DNA of 13,928 bases from Clostridia bacterium (GTDB taxonomy: Bacteria > Bacillota_A > Clostridia > Oscillospirales > CAG-272). Below, piece after piece: positions 1,396 through 3,088 of the stretch. The stretch's first letter is position 1, and each line of letters starts with the position of its first letter. Position numbers and translations under genes: made by a program. A model generated the notes under the pieces. The model did no database searches and was not told the origin of the DNA. It saw only the letters and a list, made by a program, of their open reading frames with translations. The stretch covers positions 1-13,928 of the forward strand of contig JAFTRQ010000182.1 in assembly GCA_017462125.1 (NCBI GenBank), in the 5' to 3' direction.

Positions 1396-1812
1396 ATGAT
1401 AAAAGAGCTAATGCACGACCCCATTTTTCTTGCGGGAAAGTCGGAGGTCGCTACGATAAATGACCTACCAATCGCCAAGGATTTGCTCGACACTCTAATG
1501 GCTCATAAAGAGACTTGTGTAGGGATGGCGGCGAACATGATTGGGGAGCGGAAATGCATCATTGCATTCGTCTGTGATGACGGAACTTACATGACAATGA
1601 TGAACCACGAAATCATCAAAAAGGCGCTTCCATACGATACCGAGGAAGGCTGCCTTTCGCTCCTCGGTGGACCGCGTAAAAGCAAGCGGTACAAGACCAT
1701 AAAAGTGCAATATCAAACCCTTGATATGAAGACACGAACCAAAACCTTTGAGGGGTGGACAGCACAGATAATTCAGCACGAAGTCGACCATTGCAACGGC
1801 ATACTCATTTGA
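1396..1812 (+). CDS. def: Peptide deformylase, short 'AANM' class
   Basis: Likely removes the N-formyl group from nascent proteins. The 138-aa protein carries the metal-site motifs EGCLS (84-88) and HEVDH (128-132), giving ligands Cys86, His128 and His132 and catalytic Glu129. Motif I is unusual: canonical GxGxAAxQ is here CVGMAANM (41-48), so the first Gly is Cys and the active-site Gln is Met. As I recall, this variant recurs in a compact subclass of clostridial deformylases, so it need not mean loss of function. The chain ends immediately after HCNGILI. GAGGA at 1386-1390, inside the end of the upstream gene, serves as ribosome site, so translation is probably coupled to the lipoprotein. 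Whether it is the housekeeping enzyme or an accessory copy cannot be told from this window. Confidence 0.88.
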   Translation: MIKELMHDPIFLAGKSEVATINDLPIAKDLLDTLMAHKETCVGMAANMIGERKCIIAFVCDDGTYMTMMNHEIIKKALPYDTEEGCLSLLGGPRKSKRYKTIKVQYQTLDMKTRTKTFEGWTAQIIQHEVDHCNGILI

Positions 1813-1881: not shown

Positions 1882-2054
1882 AATGAATTGCAACCTAACG
1901 GTTGCGTGAATTGAGCACAAGTGCTCATGAATTGGCTTGCCATGAATTGCCCTGCGGGGCATTGGGGGTGCAATTCAATTCATGGAGGAGGCGAAACGCC
2001 GACGAGAAATCATGATGCGATAGCATCAATTCATGACACGAAGTGTCAAATCAT
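1882..2054 (+). repeat. Array of small hairpins with mutually complementary linkers
   Basis: Left half: linker (A/G)TGAATT followed by a small hairpin, four times: GCAACC/GGTTGC (1890-1905), GAGCAC/GTGCTC (1913-1926), GGC/GCC (1934-1941), GCCC/GGGC (1949-1960). Right half: GGCG/CGCC (1990-2000), GATGC/GCATC (2014-2027) and GACAC/GTGTC (2035-2047), with linkers AATTCAT and AAATCAT after the last two. The right-half linker is the reverse complement of the left-half linker. The whole could fold into a long-range duplex studded with side hairpins. The stems differ in sequence while the linkers are conserved. It ends 19 nt before the four-helix-bundle start codon, so it would be the 5' leader of that mRNA. 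I see no convincing promoter inside it. Confidence 0.75.
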
Positions 2055-2073
2055 CAAAAAACGAGGGCTTACG

Positions 2074-2445
2074 ATGAAAGAAAATTTTTTAGTCGATTTA
2101 TCAAAGCAATTCGCGGTTGATATCGTAAATCTTTGCACAGATATCAAAGAAAACAGAAAAAGCAATGTATTATTAAACCAAGTATTGCGTAGCGGTACAA
2201 GTATCGGTGCAAACATTCACGAAGCCAACTATGCTGCAAGTAAAGCAGATTTTGTCAATAAATTCCAAATTGCACTAAAAGAGTGTTACGAAACCGATTA
2301 TTGGCTTGGATTGTTCAAAGATACGCGCATGATAACCGAAGAAGAATACAAGGATATGTTTGCAAAATGTAGTAAAATTCGAAAATTGCTCATTGCTTCC
2401 ATCACCACCGCAAAAGGAACGGTTGAGGACAAAAGTGATTTTTGA
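2074..2445 (+). CDS. Four-helix-bundle protein (S23 / bAvd-like)
   Basis: This 123-aa, all-helical protein belongs by motif to the four-helix-bundle family that includes proteins encoded in 23S rRNA intervening sequences ('S23') and the accessory protein Avd of diversity-generating retroelements. The family signature LRSGTSIGANIHEA is at residues 38-51, with KADFVNKFQIALKE (57-70) and ETDYWL (73-78) in the next helix. Members are basic, ring-forming and nucleic-acid-associated where studied. The start was chosen at the ATG at 2074 because GAGGG (2063-2067) precedes it and because translation upstream would run through the hairpin array. No reverse transcriptase, template repeat or rRNA is nearby, so neither a DGR nor an rRNA insertion is supported. 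The leader array suggests an RNA partner, but the function is unknown. Confidence 0.88.
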   Translation: MKENFLVDLSKQFAVDIVNLCTDIKENRKSNVLLNQVLRSGTSIGANIHEANYAASKADFVNKFQIALKECYETDYWLGLFKDTRMITEEEYKDMFAKCSKIRKLLIASITTAKGTVEDKSDF

Positions 2446-2990: not shown

Positions 2991-3026
2991 GACTTTTTGA
3001 ACTTACCCCCATTTTTGACTTATTTT

Positions 3027-3088
3027 GAGACCTTTTGCATTCCCCACTCGTGTTGAATCTGTCATTTGCGTCAAACGACAAATTCAAC
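3027..3088. repeat. Right copy of the ~65-bp repeat with imperfect 17-bp hairpin
   Basis: GAGACCTTTTGC (3027-3038), a 13-nt spacer, then GTTGAATCTGTCATTTG (3052-3068), a 3-nt loop and CAAACGACAAATTCAAC (3072-3088). Two positions mismatch as DNA (C-A and A-C); in a minus-strand RNA both become G-U pairs. A second TGAGAC-type motif precedes it at 2988-2999. Confidence 0.82.

Follow-up and report, generated by a model that had tools for sequence, protein, structure and literature searches.

The array and its gene

What is a row of small hairpins, joined by one conserved heptamer, doing in front of a four-helix-bundle gene? The arrangement lies in a 13,928-nucleotide contig of a Clostridia bacterium (JAFTRQ010000182.1), the whole of which is called the window here, and the first-pass annotation had proposed a small RNA-protein element or an autoregulated leader. 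The array occupies positions 1883-2054 of the + strand and, as read from the window sequence, comprises eight heptamers and seven hairpin segments (H1-H7). Its earlier description as heptamer-linked hairpins in two opposed halves holds. The left half (1883-1960) has ATGAATT-type linkers, namely ATGAATT at 1883-1889, 1927-1933 and 1942-1948 and GTGAATT at 1906-1912, together with H1 (1890-1905), H2 (1913-1926), H3 (1934-1941) and H4 (1949-1960). The right half (1977-2054) has AATTCAT at 1977-1983 and 2028-2034 and AAATCAT at 2007-2013 and 2048-2054, together with H5 (1984-2006), H6 (2014-2027) and H7 (2035-2047). Unlike the others, H5 is not a simple hairpin and reads GGAG...GAG around a GGCG/CGCC stem. 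The centre (1961-1976, + strand) consists of a spacer and the strand GTGCAATTC, which, from the consensus fold and covariation, is able to pair with linker 1 and the 5' arm of H1 (stem P1).

Folded as RNA, the array reaches -63.8 kcal/mol, whereas 200 dinucleotide shuffles average -49.7 (sd 4.2; z -3.4), and with DNA parameters z is -3.3; in neither case was any shuffle as low. The linkers of the two halves had also been expected to join in one long duplex with side hairpins. Such a duplex appears neither in the minimum-energy fold nor in the consensus fold, in which P1, a stem of 10 bp, encloses H2-H4 and separate hairpins follow. The full linker-linker duplex was rejected on its absence from the folds computed; the linkers are too invariant for a covariation test, and pairing of AAATCAT with ATGAATT leaves one mismatch.

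The last linker ends at 2054 and the ATG of the gene stands at 2074, which confirms the 19-nt spacing noted earlier. The gene (2074-2445, + strand) encodes a 123-aa four-helix-bundle protein of the S23/bAvd type, which matches PF05635 (23S_rRNA_IVP; 1.3e-25, 90.1 bits against a cut-off of 33.8), TIGR02436 (four helix bundle; 4.1e-29) and PDB 2rld (E 2.5e-28). Only PF05635 and related models match it, and neither a toxin-like family nor an HUH (Y1) transposase is among the matches. S23/IVP proteins are common, and we know of no function assigned to them outside retroelements.

Borders of the unit

The unit begins before the limit set in the first-pass annotation, with a perfect 17-bp hairpin with a 6-nt loop (P0, 1842-1881, + strand) that adjoins the first linker. 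Its left arm resembles the end of rlmD/rumA-type genes, and in relatives, judged by eye, the left arm of P0 is often formed by the end of the upstream gene, which suggests either that the target is recognised through pairing or that a fold-back arises on insertion. P0-like stems of at least 8 bp adjoin the array in 68 of 112 places against 0.5% in shuffles, a count in which the copies of one dispersed subfamily (see below) share a single P0 and hence are not independent. In some relatives a TATAAT-like box is seen by eye just before P0.

When the window was compared with the related loci by blastn, none of the 80 matches listed began before 1818, and only two, L018 (to 2538) and L005 (to 3019), passed 2512, the L005 extension running over a shared small ORF. 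In the end region of this shared block a small TTTTGAG/CTCAAAA hairpin (2440-2458, + strand) lies over the stop codon and is conserved in several close relatives. About 1.2 kb downstream of the first 5' border lies another copy of it, a 72% direct repeat (3026-3088, + strand) that contains a P0-like hairpin (3052-3088, two mismatches) but is followed by no array; repeats like it come after the gene in L010, L012 and L039. A peptide-deformylase-type gene stands just before the array both in the window (1396-1812) and in L067, where the call was judged from C-terminal sequence; this is possibly a coincidence.

Conservation and covariation in relatives

Relatives comprised the best 80 of 370 candidates from named genomes (64-97% identity) and one locus on a viral contig, 81 loci in all. 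The prediction that the array would recur beside the same protein family was borne out, since at least three canonical heptamers lie within 300 nt upstream of the gene in 79 of the 81 loci; a control stretch downstream holds a mean of 0.49 left-type and 0.40 right-type words per 400 nt. The two exceptions carry variant heptamers (ATGATAT in L073 and GTGAAAT in L081). Arrays are kept upstream of homologues, and the changes in their stems are compensatory: in 47 aligned leaders, 13 of the 32 consensus pairs show at least one double change.

Arm pairing was assessed in the 48 of 82 arrays that fit a strict pattern, the 34 with other architectures being left out, and was compared with the maximum of 500 reshuffles, a margin that ignores relatedness and so is not a probability. 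Pairing against that maximum was 92% vs 78% for H1, 93% vs 66% for H2, 85% vs 67% for H3, 94% vs 76% for H6, 100% vs 94% for H7 and 34% vs 32% for H5. The 5' arm of H1 covaries not only with its hairpin partner but also with the centre strand (87% vs 73%), so two alternative pairings are conserved.

Variable stems between constant linkers had been read as selection on RNA shape. The stems do vary with compensation and the linkers are conserved, as that reading would have it; its RNA part is unproven, since the stems show no strand-specific G.U tolerance and the loops of the two halves are mirrored. The idea of a leader for one gene fares worse: arrays can also follow the gene, flank it on both sides or stand where no such gene is near, and the units look inserted. 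The orders LEFT-RIGHT-gene, LEFT-gene-RIGHT and RIGHT-gene-LEFT all occur, which leaves the true ends of the element uncertain. Both inverted halves precede the ORF in the window, and they enclose it in L049, L067, L071 and L073.

RNA or DNA symmetry of the array

Among 1,485 stem positions counted, 1,462 are Watson-Crick, 8 are G.T, 7 are A.C and 8 are others, under a rule by which 7 of the 192 segments on the left and 55 of the 204 on the right do not fold. Strand-specific G.U tolerance does not show in the array stems. In arrays of the window heptamer class the loops are mostly TNC/TNNC on the left and mostly GNA/GNNA on the right, that is, mirror images; GCGAAGC occurs in 32 of the 204 right segments and in none of the 192 left, and GCTTCGC in 19 left segments and in none on the right. 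Such a mirror is expected if both halves are one DNA structure in opposite orientation, and is not predicted by constraint on the + strand RNA alone. The G.T/A.C balance and the mirrored loops fit DNA-level inverted symmetry at least as well as + strand RNA. In 22 arrays with other heptamers the loop mirror is not significant (28 TNC/TNNC to 15 GNA/GNNA on the left, 9 to 12 on the right; Fisher p 0.11). DNA mini-hairpins with GNA loops are specially stable. Extraordinarily stable DNA hairpins are also described in general terms elsewhere (PMC10527192), the available portion of that source making no mention of GNA.

Gut-1 RNA and the left half

The Rfam family nearest to the window is Gut-1 (RF01706; Weinberg 2010, PMC2864571), described as a noncoding RNA of human gut sequences and, in the available portion of that description, with no protein partner named. 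Its consensus has three hairpins linked by GUGAAAU, and the left half of the window array corresponds to it. The match covers the whole length of Gut-1 at 25.1 bits, and the difference is that the window array itself lies under the Rfam gathering score of 50. In L081 Gut-1 matches twice, at 72.9 and 69.4 bits, and two sub-threshold matches (38.4 and 37.3) lie at the right halves on the other strand. Gut-1 also stands above threshold directly upstream of PF05635 genes in L130 (63.5 bits), L142 (70.5) and L145 (66.1); a scan of the paralogue loci L120, L121, L124, L140 and L171 found none. The likeness of three heptamer-linked hairpins, with the above-threshold matches in L081 and directly before PF05635 genes, indicates that Gut-1, an Rfam orphan, is, as judged from sequence, the left half of S23-type heptamer arrays.

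Paralogues and their own heptamers

PF05635 matches number 1-7 per genome in 28 genomes. We fetched 60 stretches around such matches; 56 were matched by the window protein, and 15 of these repeat members of the set of 81 loci, leaving 41 further copies (L112-L115, with no tblastn match to the window protein, were left out of the paralogue counts). Many of the further copies have inverted arrays built on other words, such as CGATAT, TGAAAT, GTATGGAATC, AGTTATATT and GCTAAATT, some have simple tandem heptamers that lack hairpins, and in a few no clear pattern is seen. In a word test, from which L155 was omitted as too short, 110 of 137 leaders exceed all 20 shuffles, or 96 of 122 once the 15 repeated loci are removed, so that 26 of the 122 fail. 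The leaders that fail include degenerate arrays that are plain by eye (e.g., L072, L073, L131, L163 and L171) and some with nothing clear by eye (L122 and L146); L117-L119 have short tandem heptamers at most.

The heptamer follows the protein. Among 82 non-redundant proteins, a linker similarity of at least 5 of 6 was found in 72, 64, 23, 6 and 0% of protein pairs in bins of falling identity, in a comparison that left out 20 of 135 entries without a two-sided 6-mer. None of 300 permutations gave a co-divergence as high, and the effect is also present in 33 further copies alone. Co-inheritance of protein and array would explain the co-divergence, which shared descent alone can give. The heptamer that follows each protein lineage offers a concrete candidate binding partner for S23/IVP proteins. 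A tRNA gene lies upstream in 21 of the 41 further copies, which have other heptamer types, against 0 of 106 random positions; among the 81 window-type loci no tRNA gene was found upstream.

Putative insertion sites and gene-less arrays

Upstream neighbours differ among relatives, many arrays lying behind rlmD/rumA-type genes and others between operon genes. Four regions (L202-L205, in genomes G013, G003, G010 and G009) each contain a pair of rumA/rlmD-type genes; at least one S23 unit, along with other genes, lies between the pair or next to it. One operon site, the ntpB-ntpD junction of the V-ATPase genes, was followed in 30 ntpD loci fetched from relatives of genome G025. Two of the 30 contain array, gene and array in gaps of 549 and 556 nt, and 28 have no S23 match, 23 of these with a gap of at most 56 nt; the longer gaps include three (L229, L230 and L232) with the look of repeat palindromes lacking the gene. 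In L211 a 19-nt palindrome, ATGATTATTAAATAATCAT, stands at the junction where a relative has the full unit, and could be an excision scar. The hemW site was uninformative, as the upstream neighbour differs among the relatives fetched.

A model of the array (R1) matches in all 28 genomes, with up to 24 matches in one, and some genomes have far more matches than S23 genes (24 vs 3, 18 vs 1 and 17 vs 1), though a single place may be counted once per strand. Forty array places were chosen at a distance from known S23 matches, and in 39 the stretch fetched contains no S23 match. A dispersed subfamily of hairpin arrays makes up 15 of the 40 places (L301, L303, L304, L315-L318, L320, L324, L325, L327-L331), spread over five genomes (G002 and G006-G009) and about 390 bp long where both ends could be read. 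At seven of them (L315-L317, L320 and L327-L329) inverted ends could be read, and an ordinary transposase could move this subfamily. No target-site duplication was established and no insertion event was seen.

Several subfamily copies sit in the loops of intrinsic terminators of the host. When the downstream window was short, an inverted match of at least 10 nt was found at 3 of the 40 places (controls, 4.9%); with a longer window, a flanking inverted match of at least 12 nt was found at 6 of 40 against 0.4% of control pairs. Five of these six belong to the subfamily with inverted ends, in which L315 in addition has a match of 11 nt, and the sixth, L307, may be chance. Insertion into terminator loops was rejected as a general rule, the short-window test being negative and the longer-window matches mostly from the subfamily.

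Among 79 relatives of genome G006, an S23 homologue is present in 48 and arrays in 21, and all 21 have an S23 homologue, compared with 27 of the 58 others. Arrays occur in 8 of the 9 genomes with an S23 homologue of at least 60% identity against 13 of the 70 others (Fisher p 6e-5); the filters of this census were stricter, with no more than 37 candidates scored in each genome, so some array-negatives may be false. G150 has a 64% homologue yet no R1 match. Several S23 copies contain internal stops.

Comparison with known systems

REP/RAYT systems combine dispersed palindromic repeats with a few gene-bearing copies that carry the same repeats, and the RAYT protein is an HUH nuclease. The present elements resemble them in having dispersed arrays and some gene-bearing copies that share the repeats, and differ in that the gene of the window unit is of PF05635 and not an HUH (Y1) transposase. 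STRR heptamer repeats are 7-nt tandem repeats of heterocystous cyanobacteria; in the Nostoc and Anabaena plasmid loci examined, 7-nt tandem repeats likewise flank four-helix-bundle genes, but there are no hairpins between the repeat units. We know of no report linking STRR repeats to a four-helix-bundle gene. Inverted ends as in TIR-type MITEs were read in seven places of the one dispersed subfamily and not seen for the window.

The intervening sequence (IVS) of Coxiella has tandem heptamers before an S23 ORF and 28-bp terminal inverted repeats, according to the part of PMC4990558 drawn on here. The 23S rRNA IVSs, which lie inside 23S rRNA genes and are cut out of the transcript by RNase III, share with the window unit a PF05635-type protein, inverted repeats and a transcribed, non-coding location, and the Coxiella IVS also shares heptamers before the ORF, whereas the window heptamers are spaced by hairpins and gene-less dispersed copies occur here. 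A whole-window scan found no rRNA and no Rfam family at gathering score, which places the window unit outside a 23S rRNA gene. Diversity-generating retroelements combine a reverse transcriptase with template and variable repeats. Their Avd/bAvd belongs to a homologous four-helix-bundle family (PMC10053308, in the portion available), and the difference here is that no reverse transcriptase was found among 16 window ORFs scanned with Pfam. Taken by its sequence features, the element is nearest to rRNA intervening sequences in its protein and repeats, and to REP/RAYT in its apparent habit. PMC4679880 describes heptamer direct repeats, and terms for an S23-type protein were not found in the accessible part of its text. 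Judged by title and the start of the abstract, no open-access paper was found that treats heptamer arrays, Gut-1 and S23 proteins as one mobile system.

A proposed selfish element and alternative explanations

The first-pass annotation saw a true and widespread structure, and the evidence moves its interpretation from a leader RNA to a selfish element with a cognate inverted heptamer array. We regard it, with slightly better than even confidence, as an inverted heptamer array with an S23/bAvd-type gene, in which the cognate ring protein recognises the array and the array can spread either together with the gene or alone. The conservation, covariation, borders, gene-free sites, gene-less arrays and co-divergence observed all point to this reading, as do the co-occurrence of arrays with S23 genes, the 7-nt repeats at plasmid loci, the tRNA genes before further copies and the heptamers of the Coxiella IVS; binding of the array by the protein and the way the element moves are inferred. 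Against it stand the 13 of 70 genomes that carry arrays with no close S23 homologue (at least 60%), the lack of an R1 match in G150, the varied order of halves and gene, the subfamily with its own inverted ends, the lack of tRNA genes before window-type loci and the 26 of 122 leaders that fail the word test. Such an element would occupy transcribed intergenic places that the host tolerates, those following a stop codon or separating operon genes and, in other heptamer types, those following tRNA genes as well, and the window array would be a heptamer array enlarged by hairpins between the heptamers. The ring-shaped protein may bind its own array at the heptamers, the array being either RNA or extruded single-stranded DNA, and may assist in the copying, protection or mobilisation of DNA that carries arrays, both in cis and in trans. 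To our knowledge no nuclease is known in the S23/bAvd protein family, and movement would therefore probably involve host or other enzymes. On this view, 23S rRNA IVSs that carry S23 genes would represent members that had come to lie in rRNA.

Unrelated transposons might instead carry the arrays, the S23 protein being a passenger, or else a host factor whose binding to them is incidental. We consider this unlikely: it would account for the 15 of 40 dispersed places in one subfamily, with inverted ends read in seven, and for the six places with long flanking inverted matches, but the other 25 places lack the ends of the subfamily, arrays co-occur with S23 genes and heptamers follow the protein. 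Slightly less likely still is an autoregulatory leader, a 5' array bound by the transcript's own protein, with a switch between H1 and P1 controlling translation and the spread of arrays secondary. The 19-nt spacing, the covariation of the H1 5' arm with both partners, as a switch would need, and the TATAAT-like box in some relatives would suit it, but arrays also occur after the gene, on both sides or without it, many copies with heptamers other than ATGAATT are plain tandem repeats lacking hairpins, and a scan at the window copy found no + strand terminator or strong promoter. The covarying stems, the conservation beside one protein family and the above-threshold Gut-1 matches in L081, L130, L142 and L145 could belong to RNA genes acting with the S23 protein in a cellular role; we hold such a host-useful RNA to be quite improbable in view of the patchy presence of arrays (21 of 79 relatives) and S23 homologues (48 of 79), the internal stops in some S23 copies, the variable copy number, and the mirrored halves with no excess of G.U. 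Type III toxin-antitoxin systems have a repeat array before a small gene, which the window recalls, and some homologues lie in cas and restriction loci. That the ring protein is toxic and under the control of repeat RNA or DNA, in a toxin-antitoxin or defence unit, nevertheless seems very improbable, as there is no toxin-like family match, gene-less arrays are common and the halves are inverted rather than direct repeats.

Plasmid loci and generality

A tblastn search of plasmids returned 25 records, and 7-nt repeats stand beside the gene in all ten loci examined, those of L348 being judged by eye. The ten span Bacillota, Bacteroidota, Cyanobacteriota, Spirochaetota and Chloroflexota. In nine of nine loci computed, a period of 7 or 14 was strongest and the inverted word exceeded all 20 shuffles, narrowly in L339 and L343. 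As a tentative extension of the selfish-element reading, for which we would put the chances rather below even, there may be a widespread class of mobile elements without a recognisable nuclease, each consisting of a pentameric S23/bAvd-type ring and a cognate inverted heptamer array that is mobilised gene-less in trans; Gut-1, the cyanobacterial repeats, IVSs and S23 'orphans' would then be one system. In such a class the array would fold as extruded single-stranded DNA, with GNA-type loops on the AATTCAT strand, or as RNA. A heptamer that follows each protein lineage offers one explanation for an orphan Rfam motif, cyanobacterial heptamer repeats and rRNA intervening sequences, and where such arrays are met in operons, cas loci or restriction loci they may have been inserted there rather than serve in regulation.

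In the Nostoc and Anabaena plasmids L343 and L345, the heptamer-repeat four-helix-bundle gene is flanked by cas2 and cas1, both of which are on the other strand. The 23S rRNA IVP is listed among the associations of CRISPR adaptation modules in the portion of PMC10910872 available, which fits these cas1-cas2 placements. In L347, L348 and L339, members of the gene family lie between DUF1156 and Swt1-HEPN genes, and between hsdS and hsdR.
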